A DNA stretch of 64,000 nucleotides, from assembly GCF_900103505.1 (NCBI RefSeq), contig NZ_FNIA01000004.1, forward strand, positions 1 to 64,000. Reading direction: 5' to 3'. The translations under genes and the position numbers were made by a program. Below the pieces are notes generated by a model. That model was given only the letters and a program-made list of their open reading frames with translations, did no database searches and had not been told where the DNA came from. Every line of letters begins with the position of its first letter. Within the stretch, counting starts at the first letter, position 1. Below, in pieces: positions 18,480 to 45,744 of this stretch. Source of the stretch: Haloarchaeobius iranensis. GTDB taxonomy: Archaea; Halobacteriota; Halobacteria; Halobacteriales; Natrialbaceae.

Positions 18480-18513
18480 AAACGTTTTCATGCAACCCGT
18501 CTGATGTGTGGGT

Positions 18514-25501: not shown

Positions 25502-25770
25502 GGTCGCGTCGGTTCGCGGTCGTCGGGCTGGTGTTCGCGTGTCTGCTGACCCTCGCGGGGGTCGGAGGGACGGCCGCCGCGCAGGACGACGCGAGCGTCG
25601 CCGACGCCATCGACCGCACCGAACGCGTCGCCGAACTGGAGTCCCTCGCCGAGCAGTCGCTGCTCCAGTACCTCGGCGGTGGCGGCATCGGGCTCGGCCT
25701 CGGTATCGTCCTCGGCAGCGTGGTGGTGTACCGGATACAGAAGTCGCGGATCGACGAGACCTACGAATGA
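25498..25770 (+). CDS. Small signal-peptide membrane protein
   Basis: 90 residues from GTG 25498, which overlaps the stop of tubulin 2. A signal-like hydrophobic N-terminus (about 5-27, ending TAAAQDD), a short extracellular acidic stretch (about 28-56) and a C-terminal membrane helix (about 58-78, GGGGIGLGLGIVLGSVVVY) with a basic cytoplasmic end. Unknown family. It could be a membrane tether for the tubulin. The GTG start is inferred from the overlap and the good signal peptide. Confidence 0.65.
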   Translation: MRSRRFAVVGLVFACLLTLAGVGGTAAAQDDASVADAIDRTERVAELESLAEQSLLQYLGGGGIGLGLGIVLGSVVVYRIQKSRIDETYE

Positions 25771-26876
25771 ACGGACGAGCCCTCCGAACGACCCTCGTCG
25801 TGCTCTGTGCGGTCTGGCTCGTCGCCGCACCGTTCGCGGGTGGCGGGGTGGCCGCCCAGGCGGCAGCGACGGGCGACTCGGCCGACGTGGCCGTCTGCGA
25901 CTCGGTCGAGTCCAGCGGGACGGTCGCGGTTGCGACGGTCCCGGGCAGCGACGAGCCACTCCGGGACGACCGCGCGCTGTACGCGGGCACGAGGCTCACG
26001 ATACGCCTCTGTGACGCCGACGGCGTGGTCACGCCGTACGGGGAGAGCGGGGCCTGGTTCCTCGCAGCCTGGGACGGCTACGAGATACAGAACACGACCG
26101 ACTCGAGCGTCACCATCCGACTGACCGAGGGCTACGGGCAGCTCACGGTGGCGTCGCAGGTCCGGCCGACCGGGAAGGCCGAAACCGGGCCGACGGTCAC
26201 CGAACCCACGCCGAACGTCGTCCAGCCGGCGTTCGGTGATGGGACGCTGTTCGTCCCGACTGCAGACGCCGTCGGGACCTACGGCGAGCACGAGGCCAGC
26301 TACCGGACGGCGCTGAACGAGACGGCGGCGACCACCGACCGTCTCGAGTCGCTCTCGTCTGCCGTGAACGGTAGCGGCCTGACAGACACACGGGCGACGA
26401 ACGCGACGGAGACGCTCCGGGCGCTCGCCGCGGCGACGAACGCGACCGACCGGACCGGCGGCGAGTACCGCTCGTACCTGTTCCGGGTGGCCGCCGAGTC
26501 GCCGACGCCGGGGGTCGCCGTCGACGCCATCGACGCCTCCCGAGAGCGCGAGGATACGGTCGAGCAGGACGCCGCCGGCGCGGTCGAGAGCTACGAGTCG
26601 GCGCTCGACGCCCGGGCGAGCGACGCCCGCTCGACGGTCAAGACGAACCTCCTCGTGGGGCTGGTCGGCGGACTGCTGGTCGGAGTCGTCCTGGGCGGGG
26701 TCGTACCCTACGTGGCGGCGTCGAGCACCGAGGGCCGCATCCGGGTCGACTCCTCCGCGGAGTACAGCCGGAAGGCGCAGTGGCTCCCGGTCGGCGTCGG
26801 CGTCCTCGTCCTGCTGGCGACGGTCGGGCTGCTGGTTGCGACGGACGGGCTTTCGATACTTACGGTGATACTATGA
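25767..26876 (+). CDS. Secreted/membrane protein with extracellular domain and two membrane helices
   Basis: 369 residues. A Sec signal peptide (about 1-30), a beta-rich extracellular part (about 36-170) and a helical segment (about 172-290) carrying several N-glycosylation sequons (NTT, NET, NGS, NAT). These are followed by two membrane helices (about 294-316 and 340-358) joined by a cytoplasmic loop. Unknown family. The 4-bp ATGA overlaps on both sides show tight coupling with its neighbours. Confidence 0.7.
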   Translation: MNGRALRTTLVVLCAVWLVAAPFAGGGVAAQAAATGDSADVAVCDSVESSGTVAVATVPGSDEPLRDDRALYAGTRLTIRLCDADGVVTPYGESGAWFLAAWDGYEIQNTTDSSVTIRLTEGYGQLTVASQVRPTGKAETGPTVTEPTPNVVQPAFGDGTLFVPTADAVGTYGEHEASYRTALNETAATTDRLESLSSAVNGSGLTDTRATNATETLRALAAATNATDRTGGEYRSYLFRVAAESPTPGVAVDAIDASREREDTVEQDAAGAVESYESALDARASDARSTVKTNLLVGLVGGLLVGVVLGGVVPYVAASSTEGRIRVDSSAEYSRKAQWLPVGVGVLVLLATVGLLVATDGLSILTVIL

Positions 26877-28999
26877 AAGGACAGACTCGCGCCGCGCTCG
26901 GAATCGGCGCACTGACGGTACTGTTGGCCGCGGTGGGGGCCGGACTGTTCGTGTTCGCGGGCACGCAAATCGGCGTCTACTTCGTGGTCGCTGGCATCCC
27001 GGTCGTCCTGCTGTTGGTGGCCGTCGCGTACGTCCGCGGCGTCCTCAGCGGCGAGGACAACACGGGGCAGTACGTGGAACAGCGCACGAAACAGGTCGGC
27101 GAGTCGCTGCGGGACTTCTGGCGGTCGCTCTCGACCATCGAGGAGTCCTACCCCCGGTTCGACGCGGGCACGTTGCGCTCCCGGGCGGACTCGCTCGTCT
27201 CGGACTACGAGGCACAGGGGGGCGAGTTCGACCGGAGCTCCGGCTCGTTCAGCGTCGGCAAGGGCGCATCGAGCGGCGAACTGCAGGAGCTCGAACGCAT
27301 CGACGCGGAGGTGACGACGCTCGCCGCCGACCGCGACGACCAGCTGTACGACTTCGTCCGCGACGAACTCGACGCGCTGCACGGCGACTTGCTCGCGCTT
27401 GCGGACGCCGACATCGCGTCCGACCCGGTCGCGCCGCCCGAGCCCCCGACCCCGGACGAGGGGGCACCCAGCGGGCTCGCGTACTGGGAGGCCGTCGGGG
27501 AGGACCTGGCGGAGTACCGGACCGAGGCCGACGCGACCGTCGACGAGGCCATCGCTCGCGTCCGGGACATCCAGCGGAACGCGACCGACACCTACGACGA
27601 GGCCGCCGTCGACCGACACCTCGAGGACGCCGAGGCGGACCGCCGCGACGGCGAGTACGGCCACGCAGTCGACGCGGTCCTCGAGGCCCGGGCTACCCTC
27701 GAGAGCGAGCTCTCGGGCTCGTTCGACAAGGACCGCGAGGACCTCGACGCGTTCGTCGACACCATCCTCGACTCCGGGGCCGAGCAGTACGTCGACGCCG
27801 AGCTGTTCGACCAGGTGCGGTCGGTCCAGCGCGAGCTCGACGCGCTCGACTCGGCGCTCGACGTCGGCTCCCTGAGCGAGCATCGACAGACCGTCAGGAC
27901 GGCGGCCCTCGACATCGTCTCGGCCCTCCAGCGCGAGGTCGACCGTCACGTGGAGCGCCTCGCGGGCGAGGACCTGCCCGCAGGCTACTACAGCCGTCCG
28001 GCCGTCGCCGACGAGGACCACGGCGACGAACTGCGCGCAATCGGCCCCGTCCGCGAGCTCGACCGCGAGTGGGCGAGCGTTGTGGCCGACCTCGTCGACG
28101 CCGTCGGCACGGTGAAGACCAAGGCCACGGTCGTCGAGGCGTACGGCGACGTCAGCGAGACCATCGAACAGGAGCTCCGGCGGAACGGCAGCGTCACCGC
28201 GGACGACCTCCCGGTGCGAAACGCCGGCCAGTTCTTCGGGCTCTACTTCCGTCGCAACCCCGACGTGGAGTTCGACCCCGACGAACCCGCGCTCCACCGC
28301 GGTGACGTTGAGACGTACACCGTCGACGTGACCGTCTCCTACGACGAGGGCAGCGAGGCCAAGCGGCGAGCGACGGTGATGCTCGACGGCGGCGAGTACG
28401 ACGGCCGCGAGGTCGTCGAGACCCACCTCGTCGGCACCGCCACGTTCGCCGACGTGCCCTTCGGTGAGTACGACCTCGTCGTCGCGCCCGGCGAGGACGA
28501 CTACGGTCGCGTCGAACGGAGCGTCACCGTCGAGGGCGACAGCGACCTCTCGGTCGACCTCGAACCCGTCACGCTGGTCGAGCAGCTCGTCGGCGACCGC
28601 CGGGACGAGATCGCAGAGCACGTCACCGAGTTCGGGCCGCGGCTCCGCGACCGCTTCGACGAGGAGGGCTATCTCAGCACGGAGATGGCGTTCCCCATCA
28701 CCGACGACTTCGTGCCCGGCCTGCTCGCCGAGTGGGCCGACCGGGAGGGGTACACCGTCACCCGCACCGACGACGGCACCGTCATCGTCTACGACGACTC
28801 GCAGCTCTCCCAGGAGATCATGAACGTCATCCAGTACAACCTCGACGAGGGGGATCGACTCAGTTACGAACGCATCCGGTCGCAGTACCTGTCGGTGCCG
28901 GTCCCGAACCCCGTCATCGAGGAGCTCGCCGCGTCGACCGGCCTGTCGGTGGAGACGACGCCGGACAGCCTGCTGAAGCCCGCCGGAGGTGAGGCCTGA
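26873..28999 (+). CDS. Membrane-anchored coiled-coil protein with Ig-like domain (tubulin cluster)
   Basis: 708 residues. Two membrane helices at about 7-28 and 33-54 are followed by a cytoplasmic body of long acidic helices (about 60-450, a coiled coil with a Pro-rich break near 180-195). A beta-sandwich-like domain is at about 475-565 (carboxypeptidase-regulatory-like: GTATFADVPFGEYDLVVAPG), with a C-terminal alpha/beta domain at about 570-700. No enzyme motif. The layout parallels the protein at 18514. The stop overlaps the start of tubulin 3 by 1 bp, so it is probably the membrane scaffold of that GTPase. Confidence 0.75.
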   Translation: MKGQTRAALGIGALTVLLAAVGAGLFVFAGTQIGVYFVVAGIPVVLLLVAVAYVRGVLSGEDNTGQYVEQRTKQVGESLRDFWRSLSTIEESYPRFDAGTLRSRADSLVSDYEAQGGEFDRSSGSFSVGKGASSGELQELERIDAEVTTLAADRDDQLYDFVRDELDALHGDLLALADADIASDPVAPPEPPTPDEGAPSGLAYWEAVGEDLAEYRTEADATVDEAIARVRDIQRNATDTYDEAAVDRHLEDAEADRRDGEYGHAVDAVLEARATLESELSGSFDKDREDLDAFVDTILDSGAEQYVDAELFDQVRSVQRELDALDSALDVGSLSEHRQTVRTAALDIVSALQREVDRHVERLAGEDLPAGYYSRPAVADEDHGDELRAIGPVRELDREWASVVADLVDAVGTVKTKATVVEAYGDVSETIEQELRRNGSVTADDLPVRNAGQFFGLYFRRNPDVEFDPDEPALHRGDVETYTVDVTVSYDEGSEAKRRATVMLDGGEYDGREVVETHLVGTATFADVPFGEYDLVVAPGEDDYGRVERSVTVEGDSDLSVDLEPVTLVEQLVGDRRDEIAEHVTEFGPRLRDRFDEEGYLSTEMAFPITDDFVPGLLAEWADREGYTVTRTDDGTVIVYDDSQLSQEIMNVIQYNLDEGDRLSYERIRSQYLSVPVPNPVIEELAASTGLSVETTPDSLLKPAGGEA

Positions 29000-30198
29000 T
29001 GTCGCGCGGCCAGTTCACGCGGTGGGCCGTCATCGCCTCCGGCGAGGGCGGCGGTCGCATCGCCTCGCAGTTCTTCAACCGGGCGGAGAACCCCGGCATC
29101 GAGGACCGCATCCTCGTGATGAACACGAACCGGAACGACATCCGGAACACCATCGACCGCATCGACGCGAGCATCACCGACACCGGCGACATCGGGGAGA
29201 ACCACGCGCTCGAGTTCGGCGACAAGCAGGGCGCGGGGAACTCCTACTACTACGGTCGGCAGGCCGCAGAGCAGGACCTCGACCGCATCACGAGCCACAT
29301 CAAGCAGACGTTCACCACGGCGGACGCGTTCCTCTACGTCGCCACGCTCGGCGGCGGAACCGGCAACGGCTCCATCCCGTTCGTCGTCGACCAGTTCAAG
29401 CAGGGGCTCACCGTCAGCGAGAGCGAGCCCTGGATGGACAGCGTCATCCACGTCGCGATGGCGGTCTGGCCGTACTACTGGGAGCCCGACCAGCGGCACT
29501 TCAACGCGGTGTCCGGGCTCTCCCGCCTCCTCAGGAACCGCGACGGCGGGCAGAACGCCGACATGGTGATGCTCGCGGCGAACTCGCACCTCGACGCCGA
29601 GAACGGGAGCGACTACGACCGCGTGAACGAACTCATCATCGAGGCGGTCGACCTGATGATCGGTGCGGGCCGGGAGACCCACGGCGTCATCGACGTCGAG
29701 GACCTGGTGACCATCCCGCGCCAGTACGGCTCCTACCACTTCACGCCGGCCGTCGCCACGGAGATGAACGGCGACATCTACGAGCTGGAGTACATGTTCG
29801 ACAAGGCGGCGGAGAACCCGTTCGTCCCGTTGGACGTCGCCACCTCCCAGATCGTCTTCCCGGTCGTCCGCGCGCCGGAGAGCATGATCGACAACGGCGA
29901 CATCACCGAGCCGGAGGTGTACCAGGCGTTCAACCAGTGGCAGAACAAGCACGACCTCAGCGTCGCCGGGCAGGCGAGCCTGACGCCCAAACGCGGTCGC
30001 GGGTCGGACGTCGACGTGCTCCTCCTGTTGGGCGGGTTCGACCTGAGCCCGCTGTTGAACCACTCGATGGAGCAGTACGAGCAGGTCCGGGACAACCTGG
30101 CCCGCGGGAACACCGCGGGGGCGGAGGGACTGACCGAGCGCGAGGTGCAGGCGGTGCTCGACAACCTCGCCGACTATCGCGACCAGAACGAGGGGTAG
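28999..30198 (+). CDS. Tubulin/FtsZ-superfamily GTPase 3
   Basis: 399 residues, the most compact of the three. GTP-binding elements are all visible: T1 IASGEGGGRIASQF (12-25), T2 LVMNTNRNDI (39-48), T3 DKQGAGNSYYYGRQ (75-88), T4 ATLGGGTGNGSIP (115-127) and T6 MLAANSHLDA (191-200). T2 with MNTN and T3 with GAGN are close to FtsZ, and the signature motif is intact. The C-terminal third has no FtsZ-like interaction tail. It is expected to be cytoplasmic and polymer-forming, possibly co-assembling with the two other tubulins of the locus. Confidence 0.88.
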   Translation: MSRGQFTRWAVIASGEGGGRIASQFFNRAENPGIEDRILVMNTNRNDIRNTIDRIDASITDTGDIGENHALEFGDKQGAGNSYYYGRQAAEQDLDRITSHIKQTFTTADAFLYVATLGGGTGNGSIPFVVDQFKQGLTVSESEPWMDSVIHVAMAVWPYYWEPDQRHFNAVSGLSRLLRNRDGGQNADMVMLAANSHLDAENGSDYDRVNELIIEAVDLMIGAGRETHGVIDVEDLVTIPRQYGSYHFTPAVATEMNGDIYELEYMFDKAAENPFVPLDVATSQIVFPVVRAPESMIDNGDITEPEVYQAFNQWQNKHDLSVAGQASLTPKRGRGSDVDVLLLLGGFDLSPLLNHSMEQYEQVRDNLARGNTAGAEGLTEREVQAVLDNLADYRDQNEG

Positions 30199-30200
30199 TC

Positions 30201-33200
30201 ATGTCGTGGGGAACTCGCGCGACGGCACTGCTCGCACTCGCGGTCCTCGTCGCCACGGTGGCCGGCGTCGGGGCGGCAGCGACGGCAGCGGACGGCACGA
30301 CCGCCGCGGAGGCGTCGGTCTCCGTCGAACGGACGGGCCCGGAGACGCTCGACGTGACCGTCGAGTTCGAGAACGGCACGGAGAACCTCTCGACGGTCAC
30401 GCTCGCTATCGCGGGCGCTGACGGCACCGCCGAGGCGAACGTGAGCGAGACCGCCGACGGGGACTGGGAGGCCGAACTCGGGGTCACAGACCTCGTCAGC
30501 GCGTCCGAGACCGCCCCGCTCGGCGGCGCGACGGTCGAGGTCAGCGCCGATAACGCGACGCTCGGCGAGGACACGGCCGACCTCCGGTACGCCTCCCTGG
30601 ACGGGACGGCGGCGCGGTTCGAGGACGGCGCGGTCCACCTCACGCCCGTCGACGTTCGCGGCTTCGCCACCACCGCACCCGTCCCGGTGAGCGTCGGTGA
30701 CGCGACGGTGAACGCGAGCTACGATGCCGAGGCCGGCGCGCTGGTGCTCGACGCCGACGCGCTCGGGGGCCTCGACCGGGCCTCACTGTTCGAGGACCGG
30801 CAGCTCCGCGTCGCGCCCGACGAGGGCGTGACGGCGACGCCGACCTCGGTGAACCTGCGTGCCGCCGCCGAGGCGGCCAGCGAACTCGTCGCGAGCGGCG
30901 ACGGCGTCGCCATCTCAAACCCGCTCCTGTCGGTGCTCGACGCGGGGACGTACCACCTCGAGCTGACGACCGAGTCGCCCGACGGGCAGTTCGCCGGCCC
31001 GGTCGAACCGACCGACGCCGGCGTCGAACTCCCCCGGGCCGCACTCGCCGCGAACGTCACCGCGACGCTCTCGGTGGGTGACGCCGACGGTCCGCGGCTC
31101 CTCGACTCGTGGACGAGCCGGTACGCGAGCGAGTCCGTGGACGTGTACGTGAACGGGAGTCGCTTCGAGACGACGGTCGACGACGTGACCGAAGTGTTCG
31201 TCGCAACCGGTGACGACGTCACCAGCCTCGCGGTCAGCACCGAGAACGGCACCTACATGACGAACGGGACCCTGCCCGTCGACAGGCCGGTCCTGCTCGT
31301 CGCCGGCAACGACACCGTCTCCGGTCACACGGTCGAAGGACAGTTCGGGGCCGGCACCGGACAAGACGAGGAGCAGGGGCAGGAGGGGACCGCCAGCGAA
31401 GCGCCCGCCACGACCAATGGCCAAGGGGCGACGAACACGACGAACTCGTCGGCCGGTGGTATCGACATCGCGGGGCTGCAGTACAACGTCCTGACCATCC
31501 TCACGCTCGTCGGGGCACCGGTGTTGTTCGGAATACTGGTCGCGCTTCTCGTTCATTTCCTCATTGGGCCGACGGGCGTGTATCCGAAGACGCTCCGGGC
31601 GGGAACGTTCCTCATCGTCGCGGGCGGATTGCTGGGGGTGGTCGTAGATATCGGACTCGGTGCCTTCCTCCTGCAGCCACCGACGTACATCGATTACTGG
31701 CAGCCGGCACTGGTGGGCTGGGTGTTCGGAGCGGCCGCCTGCTGGGTACCGGCGTACGGGCTCGCGACCAGCGGAGCCGGCGCGGGTGGCGGTACCACGA
31801 CGACCCCGGACCCGGTCGACGTGACGGTCACGCTCGTCGACGGCAACGGGCACCGCATCCGGGAGGGAGCGAACGTCGTCGCCAAGCCGACCCGGGGAAC
31901 CGGCTCGAAGACCACGAAGGCGACCGAGTCCGGCAAGGTCGACCTGTCGCTGCTCCCCGGCGGCTGGCAGCTCACCGCGGCGGTCGGCACCCAGCAGCAG
32001 ACCGACCGGCTCGAGGTCGAGGACGGGAGGCAGACCGGCGAGCAGGCGCAGCTTGCCTTCCCGCGACCGGGGGTGACGGTGACGATAACCGACAAGCAGG
32101 ACGGGGAGCCGATTCCCGGCGCCCGCGTCACGGTCGAACCGGACGAGGGCGACACGAAGACGGACGACACCGGCCGGAACGGTCGCGCCGGCGTCACCCT
32201 GCCGTACGCCGCGTCCAGCGCGACGGTGCACGTCGACCACCCGAAGTACCACGCCGCGAGCAACGACCGCACGCTGGCGGACGACGGCCCGCTCGAACTG
32301 AACGTCGGGCTGGGCCGGCAGACGGGGCGGCTGTCGGTGACCGCGGAGGTCGACGGCGTCGCGACCGAGGGACTGCCGGTCTCCATCGGTCCCGCCGGCG
32401 ACGACCGCTACCGCGTCGACGAGCGGCAGGGGTCGCGCCGGACGGACGAGCGCGGTCGGGTCAGAGCCTCCGACGTGTTCGTGGGCGACTACGTCGTCGG
32501 GCTGGACGTGGCCGGCTCGCAGTCGGACCTGTTCCGGACCCGGTCGACGGAGGTCGCAGTCCGCGAGGACGAGCCGACGAAGGTCACCGTCCAGGCGTCG
32601 TTCGAGTGGACGGTGCCACAGGCGACGCGGGACCGCATCCGCCGGCTCAGGCGCGAGGTCGACGGCCTCTCCGAGCAGTCGGGGCGGGACACGGCGTTCC
32701 CCGGCTACTACGGGAGCGTCGTCGACCGTCTGCTCGACCTGGTCGAGGGGCTCCCGCAGTACGGCCACCTGTTCGCGACCGGTGAACACCGACCCGACGA
32801 CGTGGCCGACGCGCTGCTCGACGCGGCCGAGGACGGCATCTCGCGGGTGAACACGGCGATGACCACGAAGCGCAACGTCGACATGTTCGCCGCGTGCGCC
32901 GACATGCCCAGCGTCGACCCCCGGTGGGACGGCGACGAACTCACCCACGAGACGTACTTCGACTACGTCGATGCGGACGTCGACAGCGACCTGACGGGGC
33001 GGATCGAGCGGACCCGGGCGCGCATCGACGACGAACGGGCGGACCTGACCGAGGTGGAGCCGACGACCGAGATGTGGGAGCACGCCAGGGAGCTGTTCCA
33101 GGAGACGAGACGCGAGCGCGAACCGCTCGCGAAGGCGGCCCGTGCACTCCTCGTCGCCGGGCTGCTGGACGCGGTCGAGCACAGCTTCGACCGGCGAGAG

Positions 33201-33233
33201 CTGCGGGAACGGATGAAGCGGACGGTGTTCTGA
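30201..33233 (+). CDS. Large transmembrane protein with extracellular and cytoplasmic Ig-like domains
   Basis: 1010 residues. The signal peptide (1-29) is followed by an extracellular region of about 400 residues with many N-x-S/T sites and a Thr/Asn/Gln-rich stalk. Three membrane helices lie at about 430-455, 465-487 and 500-522. On the cytoplasmic side are three beta-sandwich segments of carboxypeptidase-regulatory type (about 535-610, 615-690 and 695-790; e.g. DGEPIPGARVTVEPDEGDTK), then about 220 residues of helix. The topology would link cytoplasmic tubulins to the outside. It starts 2 bp after tubulin 3. I do not recognise it as a named family. Confidence 0.75.
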   Translation: MSWGTRATALLALAVLVATVAGVGAAATAADGTTAAEASVSVERTGPETLDVTVEFENGTENLSTVTLAIAGADGTAEANVSETADGDWEAELGVTDLVSASETAPLGGATVEVSADNATLGEDTADLRYASLDGTAARFEDGAVHLTPVDVRGFATTAPVPVSVGDATVNASYDAEAGALVLDADALGGLDRASLFEDRQLRVAPDEGVTATPTSVNLRAAAEAASELVASGDGVAISNPLLSVLDAGTYHLELTTESPDGQFAGPVEPTDAGVELPRAALAANVTATLSVGDADGPRLLDSWTSRYASESVDVYVNGSRFETTVDDVTEVFVATGDDVTSLAVSTENGTYMTNGTLPVDRPVLLVAGNDTVSGHTVEGQFGAGTGQDEEQGQEGTASEAPATTNGQGATNTTNSSAGGIDIAGLQYNVLTILTLVGAPVLFGILVALLVHFLIGPTGVYPKTLRAGTFLIVAGGLLGVVVDIGLGAFLLQPPTYIDYWQPALVGWVFGAAACWVPAYGLATSGAGAGGGTTTTPDPVDVTVTLVDGNGHRIREGANVVAKPTRGTGSKTTKATESGKVDLSLLPGGWQLTAAVGTQQQTDRLEVEDGRQTGEQAQLAFPRPGVTVTITDKQDGEPIPGARVTVEPDEGDTKTDDTGRNGRAGVTLPYAASSATVHVDHPKYHAASNDRTLADDGPLELNVGLGRQTGRLSVTAEVDGVATEGLPVSIGPAGDDRYRVDERQGSRRTDERGRVRASDVFVGDYVVGLDVAGSQSDLFRTRSTEVAVREDEPTKVTVQASFEWTVPQATRDRIRRLRREVDGLSEQSGRDTAFPGYYGSVVDRLLDLVEGLPQYGHLFATGEHRPDDVADALLDAAEDGISRVNTAMTTKRNVDMFAACADMPSVDPRWDGDELTHETYFDYVDADVDSDLTGRIERTRARIDDERADLTEVEPTTEMWEHARELFQETRREREPLAKAARALLVAGLLDAVEHSFDRRELRERMKRTVF

Positions 33234-33236
33234 TAG

Positions 33237-34307
33237 ATGGATGGACTGAAACTCCTCGTCGGGCTGGTCGTGTTGGCGTCCGTGACCGCGTCGCCGGCTG
33301 TCGCCGCGAGCGCTGGTGGGACACCCGGCGCATCGGCGACGACCGGTGACGCGGCCGTGACGACGACCCAACAGCCCGACACGACGGTCGGACAGGCACG
33401 GAGTGACCAGCCGCCGGAGACGGCCGACGAGTACCTCGCGGCGTTCAACGAGCTGTCGGGGACGCCGGCGTTCGAGCAGTACACCGAGTTCGAGACCATC
33501 CGGTCGCTCGCGGTCTCGAAGCTCCAGGTCGTCGAGTTCGACGACGAGACGGAGCGCGAGATGGCGACCGTACTGACGCTGCTCCGGTCGTTCAACGAGA
33601 GCTACACCGCGGCCGAGAACGGCTCCGTCCAGGCGAGCCTGGAGGCCGCGAACGGGACCGCACAGCAGGTGCAGGCGCTCGAGGAGCAGGGGCTCACGTA
33701 CGCGCCGCTGGCCGACCTCGCGCTCAGCCGGTTCTACGAGAACCAGGGGGACGCACTGCTCCAGTCGGCATCGGCCGTGACGGCGACGCCCGAGAAGCTC
33801 CGGTTGCTCGAGCAGGCAGCGACGGCATTCCGTGCGGCCGGTGCCTCCCAGAAGTTCTCGCAGGTGAACCTGCGGGTCGAGGAGCTGCGCAACCAGTACG
33901 AGCGCGACGTGGCGCGGATGAACACCGCCGAGCAGCGCGCGACCAGCTTCCTCGAGAGCTGCTCGTCCTGTGACGGCGTGAGCGCGGTGGCGAGCGGCGA
34001 ACTGTTCGGGACGTTCGCGCTGTATCTGGAGTCGGGCGGCACGCTCGCGGATGTCCGCGACGCCGAAGAGCGCGCGACCGAGAACGCGCTCTCGGACCGG
34101 CAGAGTCAGCTTGCCGGTCTGCGAAGTGATATCTCGTCGGCGCGGACGACGCTCGCACTCGCCAGCACCGCGTTGCTGGTCGGGTACGGCGCACTCGTCG
34201 CGCTGTTCGCGATGCTGGTGACCCACCGGCTCGTCGTCTGGCGGCGGACGGTCGACGCGGCGAACGTCGGCGACATCGTGGTCCTCCAGGGTGGTCACGA
34301 TGCGTAG
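33237..34307 (+). CDS. Secreted helical protein with C-terminal membrane anchor
   Basis: 356 residues: signal peptide (about 1-24), Thr/Gln-rich linker to about 60, helical repeat-like body (about 62-300; Ala-rich helices such as LRLLEQAATAFRAAGASQKF suggest TPR-like packing), a CSSC pair near residue 241-244 that could form a disulfide, and one membrane helix (about 303-330) with a short basic tail. The body is therefore extracellular. It overlaps the next gene by 8 bp. Unknown family. Confidence 0.7.
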   Translation: MDGLKLLVGLVVLASVTASPAVAASAGGTPGASATTGDAAVTTTQQPDTTVGQARSDQPPETADEYLAAFNELSGTPAFEQYTEFETIRSLAVSKLQVVEFDDETEREMATVLTLLRSFNESYTAAENGSVQASLEAANGTAQQVQALEEQGLTYAPLADLALSRFYENQGDALLQSASAVTATPEKLRLLEQAATAFRAAGASQKFSQVNLRVEELRNQYERDVARMNTAEQRATSFLESCSSCDGVSAVASGELFGTFALYLESGGTLADVRDAEERATENALSDRQSQLAGLRSDISSARTTLALASTALLVGYGALVALFAMLVTHRLVVWRRTVDAANVGDIVVLQGGHDA

Positions 34308-38293: not shown

Positions 38294-41140
38294 TCAGTCG
38301 GTCTGTTCGAACGGCGTCGAGAGGTGGACGGGCACGGACAGCTCCTCCTCCGGCTCGTCGTCCTCCCAGGTCGCCGTCCACCCCTCGAGATGCGACCGGG
38401 ACCACTCCTCCGGCGTGGCCGCGACCGGGCCATCGAGTGCGAGCCGGTCCGTCTCCCCGTCGCAGGTGACCAGCAGGTCGACCGCCAGCTCGCGGTCGCT
38501 CTCGGCGGGTTTCACGTCGACGAAGTGCTCGACCGTCTCGCCGGGCTGGAGCGACTGGACGGTCTCCTCGACGTAGATCATCTCGTTCAGTCGCTCGCCG
38601 GTGGCCGCGAGCTGGAGCTCCTGGATTGGCTCCTCGGAGACGTTCCGCAGGTTGCAGACGACCTTGCTGTAGGTGTCGGCGACGTGGGTCTCGCGACCGA
38701 CGCCGGGGTCGAGCCGGTTCGCGACGGCGGTCCCAGGCCCGGCGTCGCGTTCGACGGTCGCGAGCGACTGGAACCGCCTGTCACCGCCGTACTCGACGGT
38801 GAGTGGCACCACCGCGTCGGTGTCGGAGAGCTCCGTCTCGGGTGCCGGAACGCTGCCCGACCAGCGGACGGTCTCGCCGGGGGCGAGCCCCTCGCCGTGG
38901 GGGTCGATATCCCAGGCACCGACCCAGGTCACGTCGACCCCTTCGACGGAGAGGTAGTCGTCGGTGCGGTTCTCGACGGTGCCGCGGACACGGACCGTCG
39001 GCCCGCTCGCGTCCACGCTCGCCCGGACGACGAGTGGGCCGTCGCGAACGTCGACGTCCATCGCGCCGGTCTCCGCGAGGTGACCGCCGTCCGCCGTCGC
39101 GGCGACGGGGGGGAGCTGGCTCCGGCCACGGCGAGCGAGCGCGTGGGCCCGCTGATAGCGGCGTTCCTCGCCCCGGTCGAAGGACCCGAGCCGGAACTGC
39201 TCGCCGTCTGCCACGAGCGTGAGGTCGTCGGTCTGCCCCTCGGTGTCGACAGCGAGGTACTCCAGGAACGCCTCCGTCGCGGCCGGCTCGTCGTCGGCCA
39301 CGGCGCGACGGAGTGACACGGCCGGGGGAGCGCTGCCCCCCGGCGTGTCTCCCCGGCCCGCCTGCCGGCCGCCGCCGGGCTGTCTTGCCTGACCACCTCG
39401 CCCGCCGGCAGGCTGCCCGCGGTCCGCCCCCGTCGGAGCCTCGGCCCGCTGGTCGCGGCCACCGGGGGCAGCCCCCGCCGCGAAACTGTTGTCGAGAGTG
39501 AGGTCGTGCGTGTCCTCGACGCCGGCGCCGTCGAGCCGGACCCGGAGCACGTTCCCGTCGAGCCCGGCGGCGACGGCCCCCGGAAGGGCGACCGACAGCG
39601 TCCACGTCGCCCCCGGCGCGACGTCGACGGCGCGTTCGACCGGGCCGGCGTCTCCGACGCCCAGCAGGACGAGCGAGTCCGCGACCTTCGTCTCGGTCGG
39701 GTTCTCCACGGTCACGTCGACGAACAGGAACGACCCCTCGACCGTCGGCTCGACCGACACCGTCACCGAGCCGTCGGTCGCGCTCGTCGACGCGGTCGCG
39801 ACCGTCGCCCCGGCGTCGTCCACGACCGTCCGCTCGACGGACTCGCCAGGGGTGTACCGCTCTGTCACCTCGACACGGCTCGTCTCTCCCGGGGCGACCG
39901 CGCCCACGTGGAGGTCGTCCTCGCGGACCCGGAGCTCCTGGAGCACCTCGCCCTCGTTGTGGACGAACAGCGTCGCGTGGACCGTCGCGCCCTCGACGCG
40001 GTCGACGGTCAGCTCGGCCGCGACGGACTCCTCGGGCGGGTCCGGCCGGTCGATGGCTATCGACTCGCTCGCCAGCGCCACGCCGTCAGCGGAGACGCTG
40101 ACCTCGGCGGTCTCCCCGTCCTCGACGTCGGTCACTTCGAACTCCGCCGCCGTGCTACCGCCAGCCGGCAGGTCGACCGTCGTGCTCCGACGCGCCGTCG
40201 TCGCCCCCTCGACCGCGATTGTCACCGTCGTGCTCCCCGCCGTCTCGGCCTCGTTCGTCAGTTCGACGACGAGCGGCTCGCCCGGGCCGATCGCGTCGAC
40301 CGGGAGCGTCGCGGTCACCGCGTCCACGTCGGCGCTCCGGCGATGGACCGAGAGCGTGTCCTCGCGGTAGACGCAGACGAGGTCGCCGTTCCGGGCCGGG
40401 TACACCGACCCCGCCGGCAGGCCGTCGACGGACTCGTAGGTCCCGTCGGGCTGCACCGCGAGCAGGCCGTCTGCGGTCCGCACGAGCAGCGTCTCGTCGC
40501 CACGTGGCGTGACCTGTGTGGGACGTATCTCCGTGCGCCAGTCAACCGACCCGGACGTGGGGTCAACCCCCACGAGCTGGTCGGACTTCAGCGCGGCGAC
40601 GACCGTTCCACCGGTGCCGCCGACGCCCGTGAGTGCGCTGCCCAGGTCCGCGTCGAACACCTGCTCCCCCTCGGCGTCGACCCCGGTGACGAACGACCAC
40701 GCACCGAGCAGGAAGCGTCCGTCGGCGGCGACGAACGACACGTCACCGGCCACGTCAGCGTACGGTCTGTCCACCGTCCAGCGGCGGGAGCCGCTCTCGC
40801 CGTCCACGCCGACGAGGCTCCGTTCCGTGAGCACGCAGACGACGCCCTCGTCCGGGAGCGCTGCGACGCCCTCGACGCCCTCGGCCCCGAGGTCGAGCGA
40901 CCAGACGCGGGAGCCGCTTCCCCCCGGAGAGAGCGCGAGCAGCGCGTCGGCGGTCAGCACGTAGACGCGCTCGCCCAGCGCGACGTCGACCGGCTCGGCA
41001 TCGACAGGGAGCGTCGTCCGGTCGGTGCCCCGGACGTAGGTCAGGTCACCGTCGCCGACGAGGGCGACGTCGTCGACACCGCCGTCGCTGGCCGTGACCG
41101 ACGGCAGCTCGAACGCCGCGACTTCGGCGTAGCCGCTCAC
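38294..41140 (-). CDS. Cytoplasmic beta-propeller/Ig-like repeat protein (partner of AAA ATPase)
   Basis: 948 residues without a signal peptide or membrane helix. The N-terminal part (about 1-285) has PQQ-type propeller blades (VWSLDLGAEGVEGVAALPDE, RRWTVDRPYADVAG and others). Then come two or three CARDB/Ig-like segments (about 290-570), a Gly/Gln/Arg-rich flexible linker (about 575-630) and a further beta-rich half (about 630-948). It overlaps the upstream AAA ATPase by 4 bp, so the two are made together. A propeller plus Ig layout is typical of an adaptor that recruits substrate. The family is not one I can name. Confidence 0.72.
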   Translation of the reverse strand: MSGYAEVAAFELPSVTASDGGVDDVALVGDGDLTYVRGTDRTTLPVDAEPVDVALGERVYVLTADALLALSPGGSGSRVWSLDLGAEGVEGVAALPDEGVVCVLTERSLVGVDGESGSRRWTVDRPYADVAGDVSFVAADGRFLLGAWSFVTGVDAEGEQVFDADLGSALTGVGGTGGTVVAALKSDQLVGVDPTSGSVDWRTEIRPTQVTPRGDETLLVRTADGLLAVQPDGTYESVDGLPAGSVYPARNGDLVCVYREDTLSVHRRSADVDAVTATLPVDAIGPGEPLVVELTNEAETAGSTTVTIAVEGATTARRSTTVDLPAGGSTAAEFEVTDVEDGETAEVSVSADGVALASESIAIDRPDPPEESVAAELTVDRVEGATVHATLFVHNEGEVLQELRVREDDLHVGAVAPGETSRVEVTERYTPGESVERTVVDDAGATVATASTSATDGSVTVSVEPTVEGSFLFVDVTVENPTETKVADSLVLLGVGDAGPVERAVDVAPGATWTLSVALPGAVAAGLDGNVLRVRLDGAGVEDTHDLTLDNSFAAGAAPGGRDQRAEAPTGADRGQPAGGRGGQARQPGGGRQAGRGDTPGGSAPPAVSLRRAVADDEPAATEAFLEYLAVDTEGQTDDLTLVADGEQFRLGSFDRGEERRYQRAHALARRGRSQLPPVAATADGGHLAETGAMDVDVRDGPLVVRASVDASGPTVRVRGTVENRTDDYLSVEGVDVTWVGAWDIDPHGEGLAPGETVRWSGSVPAPETELSDTDAVVPLTVEYGGDRRFQSLATVERDAGPGTAVANRLDPGVGRETHVADTYSKVVCNLRNVSEEPIQELQLAATGERLNEMIYVEETVQSLQPGETVEHFVDVKPAESDRELAVDLLVTCDGETDRLALDGPVAATPEEWSRSHLEGWTATWEDDEPEEELSVPVHLSTPFEQTD

Positions 41141-42873
41141 ACTGCATCGCCTCCGGCGCCGTCGCCCGTCGCTCCGTCGCCCGCCGGTCCGTCAGCCGCC
41201 GCGTCGCCGGCACCGCCGTCCGGCGCGGCGTCACCGTTCTGGCCGCCCTCGCCCGCCGCACCGTCGTCCCCGACGGCGTCACCGCCGCCCGCACCGAGCA
41301 GGGATTCGAGCGCGCTCGGCTCGGTTCCGAGGCGCATCCCCAGCCGGTCGGCCTGTGCCTCGACGTAGCGCTGCATCTCCGGGTAGCCCTCCAGGTCGTC
41401 CGTCTTCTCGCGGACGCTGGCGACGTACTGCCGGACCGTCTTCGGCTCCGAGGCCGCGAGCTTCTCGAGCAGGTAGTCGGTGTCGGGGACGATGGGGTCG
41501 CCGTCGATGACGCTCTCGACCAGCTCGCGCTGGAACTCGCTGCCGAGGATGCGGTCGGCGACCTCGGCCGGCGTGTAGCCGACCGACGCCTCGCCGAGGC
41601 GCTCGTAGTCGATCTCGTTCGCGGTCGACAGCGAGTCGAGCTGCTTGCGCCAGACCTCCGCCATCACCGTCTCGTCCGGCTGCGGGATGAACTGCTGGAT
41701 GGGAAACCGCCGGGTCGCCGCCGGGTCGATGGTGAAGGGCATGTTCGTCGCGCCGATGACGAGCAGGTTGTCCTCGACGTCGTTCATCTCCTGGAGGAAC
41801 GCGTTCGTCAGCGAGCGCTCGTGGCGCTGGAGCGAGTCGTCGCCGCGGTCGGGGATGAGCGTCTCCACCTCGTCGAAGAAGAGCACGCAGAAACCCTCCT
41901 GTGCGATGCCGTGGGCCTTCTCGAACACCGCCGAGACGCGCTTCTCGGACTCGCCGGAGTACTTCGAGAGGATGTCCGAGCCACGTACCTCGAGGAACTT
42001 CACCGGCCCGTAGTTGTCCTCGATGCTCGTGTTGTACATCGCCTCGTGTGCGATGGCCTCCGAGACGAGCGTCTTCCCACAGCCCGGCGGCCCGTACAGC
42101 ATCATCGAGCTGCCCCGTGACGCGAACGCCTGCCCGTAGCGACGCTCGACCTCGTTCCGCGTCTCGGCGTCGAACAGCGCGAGCAGCATCCGGGCCGTCT
42201 GCTTGACCTCCGGCAGCCCGGCCACGTCCTCCTCGAAGGAGACCGTCGGCTTCTTCGGTTCGAGGTTCACCTCGACGGCCTCGTCCTCGGCGACCTGCTG
42301 GCCGCCACCGGGGCCGCCGCCGTGGGTCGGGCCACCCCCACCGCGCGACCGGCTCGACTCCGTCGCCTTCAGCTCGCGGAGTTCGCCGGCCCCGATGAAC
42401 TCGATGTCGGTGTCGGCGGTCACCCGGACCGTCGTGTAGCCGGCCGGCTCGACCGTCGCCGCGGTGAACGTCGCCAGGCTGTCCCCCTGCTTGACGACCT
42501 CCTCGAAGGGATGCAGGAGGTAGTTCGTCGAGCGCAGGAACGACTCCAGCTTCTCCGGGCCGTTGCCGCCGGCGTGTATCTTCACGGCGTCGCACTCGAC
42601 CACGTCGTGGACCGATGCGTTCGGGTCCACCCGGAAGTCCCGCGAGGAGTCGATGCCGCCGAACAGCTCGGCGACGTTCCGGTGCATCCGAACTTTGTTC
42701 CCGATGGTCTCGCCTGCGAGCGGGCCGTCGTCGACCGGCTTCACGAGGAAATGTGCCGACCGGTTCTTGTGGCGGATCTCCACCACGTCGCTCGCGTTCC
42801 CGAGCTTCGATTCGCCTATCTTTACGTGTGAGGTCGGCTGGTCCTGTCGAAGTATCGGCGTCAGATTAAGCAT
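41137..42873 (-). CDS. Cdc48-like AAA ATPase
   Basis: 578 residues with one AAA domain. Walker A GPPGCGKT (261-268), Walker B LFFDEVE (331-337), sensor 1 GATN (374-377) and Arg fingers in ATRRF (386-390) are intact, so it should be an active hexameric ATPase. The N-terminal part (about 1-165) is beta-rich, somewhat like the Cdc48 N-domain, then a Gly-rich linker (about 178-192). The C-terminal end (about 540-578) is Gly/Ala/Asp-rich and disordered. There is no MIT domain, so it is not a typical Vps4/CdvC. It sits between the propeller gene and two helical-protein genes in one operon, overlapping both neighbours. Confidence 0.88.
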   Translation of the reverse strand: MLNLTPILRQDQPTSHVKIGESKLGNASDVVEIRHKNRSAHFLVKPVDDGPLAGETIGNKVRMHRNVAELFGGIDSSRDFRVDPNASVHDVVECDAVKIHAGGNGPEKLESFLRSTNYLLHPFEEVVKQGDSLATFTAATVEPAGYTTVRVTADTDIEFIGAGELRELKATESSRSRGGGGPTHGGGPGGGQQVAEDEAVEVNLEPKKPTVSFEEDVAGLPEVKQTARMLLALFDAETRNEVERRYGQAFASRGSSMMLYGPPGCGKTLVSEAIAHEAMYNTSIEDNYGPVKFLEVRGSDILSKYSGESEKRVSAVFEKAHGIAQEGFCVLFFDEVETLIPDRGDDSLQRHERSLTNAFLQEMNDVEDNLLVIGATNMPFTIDPAATRRFPIQQFIPQPDETVMAEVWRKQLDSLSTANEIDYERLGEASVGYTPAEVADRILGSEFQRELVESVIDGDPIVPDTDYLLEKLAASEPKTVRQYVASVREKTDDLEGYPEMQRYVEAQADRLGMRLGTEPSALESLLGAGGGDAVGDDGAAGEGGQNGDAAPDGGAGDAAADGPAGDGATGDGAGGDAV

Positions 42874-43525
42874 TGTCTCCTCCGTTCAGTCGCCCGCCCG
42901 CCCACTCCGCGAAGGAGAGCGGCCGGGCACTCCGTCGGTCCGTTCGACGCCCGACGAACGCCGCGCCCGAGCTCGCCCGGACGAGCACGTCTCGCAGCGA
43001 CGCGAGCATCCGCGAGAGGCTCTCGCAGGCGGCCTGCGCGTCCGAAGCGTCCACCGCACGACTCCGGCGCGCCAGCGTCTCCGCCCGCGCCAGCAGGTCC
43101 TCGGTCACCACCCGCAGCACCGCGAGCGTCGGTCCCCAGTTCCGGGCTGGCGGGCCGCTGTGCGCGAGCGGGACGACCAGTTCGCCGGCGTGGCGCTCGA
43201 CCCGCCCTGCGTCGACGAGTGCGTCGACGAGTGCGTCGACGGCTTCATCCCTCGTCGACGCCGGGTCGGCGTAGCGCGCCTCGAGCACCCTCGTCAGCGC
43301 GTCGTCGAGGCCGTCGCCGGCCCGCCCCACCTGCGAGGGGAACGGCGCAGCGGCGACGAACGCCTCGCCCAACTCGGCCAGCGCGTCCGTCGCCTCGTCC
43401 GCGGTCCGGTACACCGACACGTCGTCGTAGGTCGTGGCCCCCAGCAACGTCTCCATCCGCTCGTCCACCCGTCTGAGCGTCCCGAAGAACGATTCAGCTC
43501 GGAGCACGGTCGACGTGGTCGACAC
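42866..43525 (-). CDS. Small helical protein of the AAA/tubulin locus
   Basis: 219 residues, almost all helix: FFGTLRRVDERMETLLGATT, ALTRVLEARYADPASTRDEA and a long Ala/Arg helix near 150-190. The middle (about 85-120, DALVDALVDAGRVERHAGEL) could be a winged-helix-like element. No motif of known function. It overlaps the AAA gene by 8 bp, so translation is likely coupled. It may be a substrate adaptor. Confidence 0.65.
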   Translation of the reverse strand: MSTTSTVLRAESFFGTLRRVDERMETLLGATTYDDVSVYRTADEATDALAELGEAFVAAAPFPSQVGRAGDGLDDALTRVLEARYADPASTRDEAVDALVDALVDAGRVERHAGELVVPLAHSGPPARNWGPTLAVLRVVTEDLLARAETLARRSRAVDASDAQAACESLSRMLASLRDVLVRASSGAAFVGRRTDRRSARPLSFAEWAGGRLNGGDNA

Positions 43526-43537
43526 GAGTCGTCCCCC

Positions 43538-44578
43538 TCAAACCTCGAAGTTGACCGCGTCCGCGTCCGTCTCGACCTCCTCGTCGGCCGTCTGCTGTGC
43601 ACTCTCGGCGGCCTCCTGGACGTCGCCGACGGTGTCCTCCACCATCGACGCGAGGTCCGTCGCCGAGGTCTGGTCGATCTTCTCGTCGATGTCGCCGACG
43701 CCACCGAGCTTCGTCGCCAGCGTCCCCATGTTCTCCACGATGTTCGTCGCGTCGTTGGGGAACTCCCGCTTCTGGACGGCGACCACCCGGATCTCCTGTT
43801 CTTTCGTCACGAGCGCCTCCTTCGCGGAGTTCAGCATCGATATCTGGTGGGCGAGCTCGGACGTCCCCTCCTCGACCGTCTCGAGCAGGTTCTCCTTGTC
43901 GACCTCCTTCATCTGCTTGTGGTAGATGAACTGGCGTTTGAGCTGCTGGTACCGGTTCCGCTCGCTCTCGTCCAGCTGCGACGGGTCGTCGGGCACGCCA
44001 GGACCGTCGCCGAGCGCCTTCAGCTCCTGTGCGGTCTCCTGGATGCGCTCGTCGATGCGGTTCGACCCGGTGTCTATCTCGTCCATCTTCTCGTTCAGCT
44101 TGTCCCGGGCCCGCTTGACGCGCTCTTTCGTCTCGTCGATCTTGTCGACGCAGGCCTCGATGCCGGCGGCCCAGTTCAGCGCGGCCCGCCCGGAGAGGTC
44201 GTCGTCGCGCGGGTCCTGGAGCAGCACGACGTCGTTGCCGTCGAACCGCAGAATCTCCTGGTCCTCGAAGTACTCGAGCAGCGCGTCGGCCTGTCGCTCG
44301 CTGGAGACGACCCTGCCCTGTTCGTCCTCGGCCGCCGCGAGCGTCTCGATGGCCGTCTGGCGGTCGATGCGCCCGTTACCCGCCTCCAGGTTCATCTCCC
44401 CGAGGAGGTCGCCCTTGATGATGGCTCGCACCGCACGCTCCCATTCGCCCTCTACGTCGTCGCCGTTGGTCCAGTCCGCCTCCATGCGGACCATCTCGTC
44501 GGTCTCGTTCACCGGGTTCGCGATGACGTAGTCGACGCCATCGACGGTCGTGGTCTCGAACGTGTATTTTCGTGGCAT
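43538..44578 (-). CDS. Winged-helix plus coiled-coil protein, ESCRT-III-like layout
   Basis: 346 residues. The N-terminal region (about 45-122) looks like a winged helix (IDRQTAIETLAAAEDEQGRV, ALLEYFEDQEILRFDGNDVV). Four or five long helices follow: about 128-188, 205-265 and 272-335. The last ones (HKQMKEVDKENLLETVEEG; TDLASMVEDTVGDVQEAAE) have the charged coiled-coil followed by a short acidic helix seen in Snf7/ESCRT-III proteins, and a winged helix before it recalls CHMP7. Sequence identity is too low to claim homology by eye. An AAA ATPase two genes downstream fits such a role. It could also simply be a coiled-coil scaffold. Confidence 0.65.
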   Translation of the reverse strand: MPRKYTFETTTVDGVDYVIANPVNETDEMVRMEADWTNGDDVEGEWERAVRAIIKGDLLGEMNLEAGNGRIDRQTAIETLAAAEDEQGRVVSSERQADALLEYFEDQEILRFDGNDVVLLQDPRDDDLSGRAALNWAAGIEACVDKIDETKERVKRARDKLNEKMDEIDTGSNRIDERIQETAQELKALGDGPGVPDDPSQLDESERNRYQQLKRQFIYHKQMKEVDKENLLETVEEGTSELAHQISMLNSAKEALVTKEQEIRVVAVQKREFPNDATNIVENMGTLATKLGGVGDIDEKIDQTSATDLASMVEDTVGDVQEAAESAQQTADEEVETDADAVNFEV

Positions 44579-44599: not shown

Positions 44600-45661
44600 T
44601 TACGTGTCGACGCCCCCGAACTCCGCCTCGGCGACGACCGCTGCGTAGCGCTCCTCGACGGCCTCCCGGACGTACCGGTTGACCGACGGGTCGTTGCTCA
44701 CCTGCATCTCCTCGACGTGCTCGCTCGCGGCCTCCTCGAACTCCGTCGGCGACGCCGGCAGCACGTCGCGTTCGGACTTCACGTCGGTCAGCACCCGTCG
44801 TGCCTCCCCCTCGACGTAGGCGTCGAACTCGTCCCGCATCACCACCATCTCCCGACCCACCTCGAGGTCGAGTCGGTCGGCGAGTGCGTCCTGCGTCGCC
44901 TCGACGATCTCGTCCTGCATCCCGTGGGCCTGCGAGAGCACGTCGAACCGGGCCTCTATCTCGGAGCGGACGACGCCCGGGAACTCCGCCGTGGGCACGA
45001 GGTACTGCGAGTCCTCGAACTGTGCCTCGACCTCGTCCTCGACCTCGCTCGCGACGTACCGCGCGAACTCGTCGAGCGCGCTCTTGACGAGGTACTCGCC
45101 GTCGAGGTCCACGATGAACCCCTCCTGTTCGAGGTAGCGGATGACGTCGGTCGTCGCCGCCACGTCGATGACCTTCTCCAGGTCGCTGTGGCTTATCTTC
45201 CCCCGCGCTGCCTTGCGTTCGAGCTGGGAGTCCAGCCCGACGTTGCCCGCGTGCTCCTTGAGCCGCGGCCCGATGGTGTAGTAGTCGCGCTCCCCTGCCG
45301 TGATACGCGCCACGAGGTCGCGGGACTCCAGCTCGGTGGCGAAGTAGTCCACGTCGTCTATCGCCAGGTCGAACCGCGACCGGAGCGTCTCGGACGTGAT
45401 GACGATTCGTTGACTGAACACGCTCGTCAGTTCGTTGGTGACGGCGTCGGAACTCCCCACGCTGAACGTGTCGACGTAGTAGACGCCGTCGCGGATCTGC
45501 TCCAGGTCGGAGAACTCGTCCTCCGTCAGGTCTCGGAGTGCCTTCTTGAGGTCCGACGTGGACAGGTTGCTCGCGTTGAGCGTGCCGGTGTCCGCGCTCT
45601 CGTATCGCTTCTGGATCTCCCCCCGCTTGTCCGTCACGTAGAGAAACCCGTAGTTCGACAT
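44600..45661 (-). CDS. Tandem winged-helix-like protein (first gene of minus-strand operon)
   Basis: 353 residues. After an N-terminal alpha-beta stretch there are two helix-turn-helix-like segments: about 85-130 (VITSETLRSRFDLAIDDVDY, then SRDLVARI) and about 153-195 (GKISHSDLEKVIDVAATTDV, then GFIVDLDGEYLVKSA). A mostly helical C-terminal half follows. Tandem winged helices in a row recall eukaryotic ESCRT-II and UFL1 in fold layout only. It is not an obvious DNA-binding repressor, as basic residues are few. An alternative start at ATG 45718 would add 19 residues and lies just after a TATA-like box. Confidence 0.68.
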   Translation of the reverse strand: MSNYGFLYVTDKRGEIQKRYESADTGTLNASNLSTSDLKKALRDLTEDEFSDLEQIRDGVYYVDTFSVGSSDAVTNELTSVFSQRIVITSETLRSRFDLAIDDVDYFATELESRDLVARITAGERDYYTIGPRLKEHAGNVGLDSQLERKAARGKISHSDLEKVIDVAATTDVIRYLEQEGFIVDLDGEYLVKSALDEFARYVASEVEDEVEAQFEDSQYLVPTAEFPGVVRSEIEARFDVLSQAHGMQDEIVEATQDALADRLDLEVGREMVVMRDEFDAYVEGEARRVLTDVKSERDVLPASPTEFEEAASEHVEEMQVSNDPSVNRYVREAVEERYAAVVAEAEFGGVDT

Positions 45662-45744
45662 TGCAACGGACCGACATATGTCTTCAAGGGCGTCGGTGTC
45701 GACCGGCAGCAGTGACATACACAGGTCTATATCTATCCGAGACA

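Follow-up and report, generated by a model that had tools for sequence, protein, structure and literature searches.

WHcc, encoded at positions 43538-44578 of the window (the whole 64,000-nucleotide stretch of Haloarchaeobius iranensis DNA analysed here), is a coiled-coil protein that probably carries a winged helix. It is best explained, with moderate confidence, as an adaptor or scaffold of a haloarchaeal ESCRT-like membrane-remodelling machine driven by GTPases and an ATPase. Its five-gene operon matches, slot for slot in the core, the haloarchaeal ESCRT system Halo_adaptin described by Makarova et al. (2024, mBio; PMC10936438; preprint PMC11188069), a match judged by gene order and domains. 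New here are the occurrence of WHcc, the AAA ATPase and the tubulin-like protein tub1 in identical sets of genomes, the presence of three tubulin-superfamily genes in a second operon, and a module that the small protein p219 and WHcc appear to share.

The five-gene operon

The operon is read on the minus strand and consists of the following genes:

44600..45718, minus strand: 'up', first operon gene, 372 aa counted from the ATG conserved in relatives; arCOG11740 slot of Halo_adaptin
43538..44578, minus strand: WHcc, the flagged open reading frame, ATG start, 346 aa; second gene of the operon
42866..43525, minus strand: p219, small helical protein in the "derived ESCRT-III" slot; 124-column module in common with WHcc
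41137..42873, minus strand: AAA ATPase with a single AAA domain, Vps4/Cdc48-like, 578 aa
38294..41140, minus strand: PQQ beta-propeller protein with probable Ig-like repeats (adaptin-like slot); no hydrophobic segment found

The order 'up' (a probable tandem winged-helix protein), WHcc, p219, AAA ATPase and PQQ propeller is kept in 17 of 20 further haloarchaeal stretches examined by profile search; among the other three, one is ended by the end of its contig, and two carry a solitary WHcc-like gene. By tblastn, all five genes were located at 7 of 10 named loci, two of the remaining loci are cut off by the end of a contig, and at the last one (L041) only a profile detected p219. The same order is also kept on plasmid PHS2 of H. 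salinarum R1. A simple hydropathy count found no hydrophobic segment of transmembrane strength in any of the five core proteins. One contig (G365, C2; loci L057 and L058) carries two copies of the operon, with the AAA frame split in one of them. Directly upstream of the operon in the window lies an open reading frame (45791-46456) that by eye resembles a Cob(I)alamin adenosyltransferase, a neighbour common only to the other Haloarchaeobius locus among the loci compared.

The first gene product, 'up', probably consists of repeated winged helices, as suggested by a low-confidence model; its profile search against solved structures gave matches at chance level only, and no Pfam helix-turn-helix or winged-helix model scored above its cut-off in either of the first two operon genes. 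A likeness of 'up' to UFL1 is conceivable. The propeller of the last gene product is recognised by Pfam (PQQ_2, 39.7 bits versus a cut-off of 27.6), and its Ig part is weak (CARDB, 13.6 bits, under its cut-off).

The first-pass annotation had placed an AAA ATPase two genes from WHcc and found it to be free of a MIT domain, and both points hold for the protein encoded at 41137-42873. It is recognised by the Pfam AAA model with 109.4 bits, and MIT is absent from its Pfam matches up to E=1. Its best profile matches in the PDB are Cdc48/VCP proteins, and its N-domain contains a short Cdc48-N-like stretch with a weak likeness to VAT_N (hhalign prob 9.2, score 26.4, 25 columns; shuffle maximum 18.7). 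It has the AAA domain and a weak N-domain likeness in common with Cdc48/VAT but possesses one AAA domain where Cdc48 has two; with Vps4 it has in common the AAA domain, whereas the MIT domain of Vps4 is missing here. A tree of 49 sequences places the group with Vps4 (support 95/89) and away from the genome's Cdc48, from PAN and from further AAA domains; the branch leading to it measures 2.67 changes per column and carries a long-branch warning, which makes this placement unsafe. A tree of 21 sequences without the longest branches has no outside root and leaves the choice between Vps4 and Cdc48/PAN grouping undecided.

WHcc and its relation to p219

WHcc is a real gene, since homologues at 24-97% identity occur in 38 of 391 genomes of the class. 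The protein comprises an N-terminal region, a probable winged helix (about residues 70-119), a conserved NWAA motif, long helices (130-270) and an acidic tail. A structural model built on 11 sequences predicts helices at 130-187, 204-225, 228-270, 277-292 and 306-331, as well as a helix-helix-strand-strand order at residues 73-119 that fits a winged helix. Mean pLDDT is 61.7, with values mostly of 70-86 in the helical part and mostly of 50-68 in the winged-helix region; residues 1-70 lie outside the confidently modelled part. The low pLDDT of this region, together with the lack of a match among the Pfam helix-turn-helix models, renders the winged helix probable rather than proven. The layout proposed by the first-pass annotation, a coiled-coil protein resembling ESCRT-III in its order of parts, is accordingly visible in the model as far as helices and acidic tail are concerned, and probable for the winged helix. 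The tail (residues 304-346) has a net charge of -13 and contains no lysine or arginine, compared to a net charge of -1 for residues 204-272. Nine alignment columns are invariant across 25 WHcc homologues, among them N135-W136, located where the first long helix starts.

WHcc belongs to no family in Pfam or NCBIfam; a profile search against solved structures yielded chance-level matches only, a Foldseek fold search with the model gave no match at E<=0.001, and no WHcc relative was present among 600 pattern matches in viral contigs. The best VIA-align row, IncA (Z 13.4), was dismissed as having a score typical of unrelated helical bundles. Four extra WHcc-like genes were noticed (L059, 9709-10647; L060, 9328-10128; L062, 3870-4805; L041, 7772-8242), two of them solitary and two just upstream of an operon; possibly, they encode interchangeable or specialised partners of WHcc.

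Profile comparison aligned p219 residues 60-183 with WHcc residues 69-200 (score 34.6, prob 38, 124 columns), and in the opposite direction gave a score of 26.7 (prob 6.6); the controls, 40 column shuffles each way, reached maxima of 17.0 and 16.2, and the reversed profile 13.9. The aligned stretch includes the NW motif as well as the winged-helix-like part and the first helix, and is suggestive of p219 being a shortened paralogue of WHcc. If so, the two proteins have to be judged together: both are derived from ESCRT-III, or neither is. Against solved structures, the p219 profile gave chance-level matches only. On a plasmid of Natrinema sp. SYSU A 869 (L132, 21034-23331) p219 is joined in frame to the AAA ATPase in an open reading frame of 765 aa. 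The propeller gene of this strain is split, so the join may reflect a frameshift or sequencing error, and the joined frame was left out of the evidence for function.

The tubulin operon and its co-occurrence with the five-gene operon

A second operon, on the plus strand of the window, ends with the gene for B930 convergently with the five-gene operon and places tub1 about 20 kb from WHcc:

18508..20394, plus strand: B628, four N-terminal hydrophobic segments and a long soluble part; first gene of the tubulin operon in relatives
20625..22232, plus strand: tub1, tubulin/FtsZ superfamily (PF00091, 52.6 bits, cut-off 33)
22242..23834, plus strand: B530, single N-terminal hydrophobic segment, long soluble part
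23993..25501, plus strand: tub2, tubulin/FtsZ superfamily (PF00091, 49.3 bits, cut-off 33)
25767..26876, plus strand: B368, hydrophobic N-terminus, two C-terminal hydrophobic segments
26873..28999, plus strand: B708, two hydrophobic segments at the N-terminus, followed by a long soluble part
28999..30198, plus strand: tub3, tubulin/FtsZ superfamily (PF00091, 43.4 bits, cut-off 33)
30195..33233, plus strand: B1012, hydrophobic N-terminus, two internal hydrophobic segments, carboxypeptidase-regulatory-like domain
33237..34307, plus strand: B356, hydrophobic N-terminus, C-terminal hydrophobic segment
34291..37083, plus strand: B930, hydrophobic N-terminus, Ig-like part (NEW3/FixG_C-like, under cut-off), C-terminal hydrophobic segment

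By the same simple hydropathy count, seven of the ten proteins contain hydrophobic segments of transmembrane strength, and none of these segments lies in tub1-3. The order B628-tub1-B530-tub2-B368-B708-tub3-B1012-B356-B930 is repeated in the other genomes read; matches were obtained at 25 of 31 loci for B930 and at 19 of 31 for B356. A Tubulin_2 match of tub2 stayed under the cut-off.

WHcc (E<=0.001), the AAA ATPase (E<=1e-60; list compared by eye) and strong tub1 matches (best score of at least 515 bits) each identify 38 of 391 genomes of the class, and the three sets are identical. These genomes are spread over 16 of 86 genera and hence do not represent 38 independent events; a Fisher value for the overlap takes no account of common descent and was left out of the argument. 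The two operons are 265 kb apart on one contig in one genome (G106) and 71 kb apart in another (G162), and the presence of both despite such distances indicates that their link is not only physical. That the ATPase operon and the three-tubulin membrane operon co-occur so exactly suggests a joint function, which would bring both great archaeal membrane-shaping families into one machine.

Weaker tub1 matches without WHcc were found outside the 38 genomes in G147 (216 bits) and G066 (180 bits), and the remaining genomes gave tub1 matches of at most 33 bits. About 57 kb around the two weaker genes (L149, L150) contain only B628-, tub1- and B530-like genes of the set, plus a B1012-like gene in G066, and AAA matches are present only in G066, at a generic level. 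The reduced B628/tub1/B530 cluster perhaps represents a related machine with other partners.

WHcc and the ESCRT-III family

Likeness of WHcc to ESCRT-III/CHMP7 and PspA extends to the general helical layout and the charge polarity; no sequence match was found, and the MIM1 motif is absent. Neither Snf7 (PF03357) nor PspA_IM30 (PF04012) appears among the Pfam matches of WHcc up to E=1 or, for 25 homologues, in a list showing 25 of the 47 families matched, and PF04012 does detect ordinary haloarchaeal PspA at about 1e-31. A C-terminal MIM1 pattern was present in none of 44 WHcc sequences and none of 39 p219 sequences. Compared with a profile of 30 haloarchaeal PspA sequences, WHcc scored 25.9 over 30 columns, and reversing WHcc or PspA gave 24.8 and 29.7; p219 scored 18.3 (prob 0.8; at most 14.8 after shuffling, 11.2 reversed), marginally above its controls and not significant. 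The test is a weak one, as its positive control, the known relation of PspA to 13 archaeal ESCRT-III sequences, scored only 19.7 (prob 1.2), and it is therefore compatible with a distant ESCRT-III homology of WHcc or p219. A cut to the coiled coil alone took the first row as reference, since the row from the window had been removed as a duplicate, and its borders are approximate. ESCRT-III or PspA chains were not among the 50 VIA-align matches listed for the low-confidence WHcc model, a result that does not speak against such a fold. A role of WHcc as the counterpart of ESCRT-III/CHMP7 is not supported.

That haloarchaea lack the canonical ESCRT machinery, as the first-pass annotation had assumed, agrees with the genomes sampled: Snf7 exceeded its cut-off in 0 of 294 genomes of the phylum, a weak result given that the model missed its cut-off in the Sulfolobus control too, and a canonical Vps4 match (E<=1e-75) occurred in 15 of 196 phylum genomes, none of them of the same order as the window. 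The assumption does not extend to ESCRT systems of every kind, some of which are reported for haloarchaea in PMC10936438. Matches of the Snf7 model in haloarchaea coincided with PspA places in three of three cases and were rejected.

Comparison with described systems

Halo_adaptin begins with a winged-helix protein (arCOG11740), followed by a winged-helix/coiled-coil protein (arCOG11741), a weakly PspA-like protein taken as a derived ESCRT-III, and a Vps4-like ATPase that lacks MIT and carries a VAT_N-related domain; in addition, it comprises adaptin-like propeller/Ig proteins (two propellers) and one CetZ-like protein (PMC10936438). One sentence of that paper credits the winged-helix duplication to arCOG11741, which we read as a slip for arCOG11740. 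The operon described here likewise encodes a probable tandem winged-helix protein, a coiled-coil protein with a putative winged helix, a small protein in the ESCRT-III slot, a MIT-less Vps4-like ATPase and a propeller protein with probable Ig-like repeats, and likewise has a tubulin-family (CetZ-like) protein as well as membrane and Ig-like proteins nearby in a haloarchaeal host. Unlike Halo_adaptin in its published description, the present set includes three tubulin-superfamily genes, a single propeller in the operon, and two operons that can be unlinked; the strict co-occurrence measured here goes beyond that description. The ESCRT reading of the locus thus stands for the operon as a whole, through its match with Halo_adaptin and the MIT-less Vps4-like ATPase, and is not supported for WHcc as the ESCRT-III itself. 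The system has already been predicted in print, and its authors inferred a role in vesicle formation or protein sorting (PMC10936438). The name Halo_adaptin was not found in other papers of the literature searched, nor did the search find experiments on any component.

Two further systems invite comparison. The Halo.Tub proteins are haloarchaeal tubulin-like proteins with several quasi-tandem copies and coiled-coil neighbours (Santana-Molina et al., 2023, PMC9871819); by description, they have in common with tub1-3 the host group, the tubulin likeness and the multiple copies, and the text on Halo.Tub in that source links no ATPase to them. The FtsZl1 systems are membrane-associated clusters of several genes, one of them for a divergent FtsZ homologue, and membrane remodelling was inferred for them (Makarova and Koonin, 2010, PMC2875224), yet their FtsZl1 coiled coil, vWA proteins, kinases and additional GTPase were not seen here by Pfam.

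Proposed function and alternatives

The reading of WHcc as part of an ESCRT-like remodelling machine draws on the five-gene order, the identical genome sets, the Halo_adaptin match, the p219-WHcc module, the charge polarity of WHcc and the grouping of the AAA ATPase with Vps4; it is weakened by the poor models of WHcc and 'up', the weak VAT_N likeness, the unsafe Vps4 placement and the differences in gene count from Halo_adaptin. For WHcc itself, the role of an adaptor or scaffold resembling ESCRT-II is more probable than that of the ESCRT-III polymer. In such a machine, the membrane proteins would anchor the complex and reach outside, and the tubulin-like proteins would polymerise with GTP beneath the membrane. 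A coiled-coil scaffold made up of the tandem winged-helix protein, WHcc and p219 may connect the cytosolic PQQ/Ig adaptor, which could bind cargo or an anchor, to the AAA hexamer. By analogy to Vps4 and ESCRT-III, the ATPase might pull at the acidic tails of either WHcc or p219 and thereby remodel or recycle the assembly. The output would most likely be a local deformation of the membrane, or sorting into vesicles, and not cell division, a role made unlikely by the absence of the set from 353 of the 391 haloarchaea sampled. Haloarchaeal vesicle formation is reported to be driven by the small GTPase ArvA, with CetZ deletions being without effect in H. volcanii (PMC10927574), so vesicles in general do not depend on this machine. 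A stricter version, in which membrane-anchored tubulins and an AAA ATPase acting on WHcc/p219 form an obligate tubulin-ESCRT hybrid, with winged-helix coiled coils unrelated to ESCRT-III in place of the ESCRT-III polymer, is conceivable and rather doubtful.

WHcc could instead be an ESCRT-III/CHMP7-like filament former with p219 as its accessory paralogue, a reading that we regard as unlikely. Its order of winged helix, long helices, short helices and acidic tail fits, and the longer WHcc holds the fuller helical part if the module in common with p219 is real; yet the Snf7/PspA searches were negative, none of the 44 homologues carries MIM1, the PspA score lay within the range of its reversed controls in a test of low power, and PMC10936438 assigns the ESCRT-III role to the next gene, in the slot of p219. 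A machine that positions chromosomes or plasmids, in which WHcc would be a kleisin-like winged-helix coiled coil acting with tubulin-like filaments and the AAA ATPase, is very improbable. Proteins of the TubZ type act in the replication and stability of plasmids (PMC2875224), and 5 of 25 WHcc homologues match MukF_M, but these matches are weak and stand among many coiled-coil matches, several proteins encoded with the tubulins have N- and C-terminal hydrophobic segments, and no SMC or ParB-like partner was recognised in the core or tubulin-operon proteins scanned.

The patchy spread over 16 of 86 genera, plasmid copies (one beside IS elements) and weak PADLOC matches (LmuB for WHcc, 3e-5; IetA/TRIP13 for the AAA ATPase) would also suit a conflict or defence cassette composed of an AAA unfoldase, a propeller/winged-helix sensor and a membrane effector. 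This is quite improbable, as the PADLOC matches track coiled coils and generic AAA likeness, and none of the five core or ten tubulin-operon proteins scanned showed a recognisable nuclease or toxin domain. Moreover, defence systems are not known to look like this set, with its roughly 15 genes and three tubulin homologues. An Aravind-type conflict system is a further conceivable reading, for which the PADLOC matches are generic only.

Plasmid-borne copies

In H. salinarum R1 both operons reside on plasmid PHS2 (OE_RS12000 to OE_RS12070), where two genes of the set are annotated as FtsZ and most as hypothetical; because H. salinarum is a laboratory archaeon, this copy makes deletion and tagging practical. 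On PHS2 (L131, 6387-17138) the five-gene operon lies downstream of several IS elements (ISH6, ISH8 and TnpB type) and of short PQQ-propeller genes. A further PQQ propeller gene is located upstream of the operon on both this and the Natrinema plasmid (L131, 2851-3795; L132, 15079-16818), and may correspond to the second adaptin-like protein of the published Halo_adaptin system.
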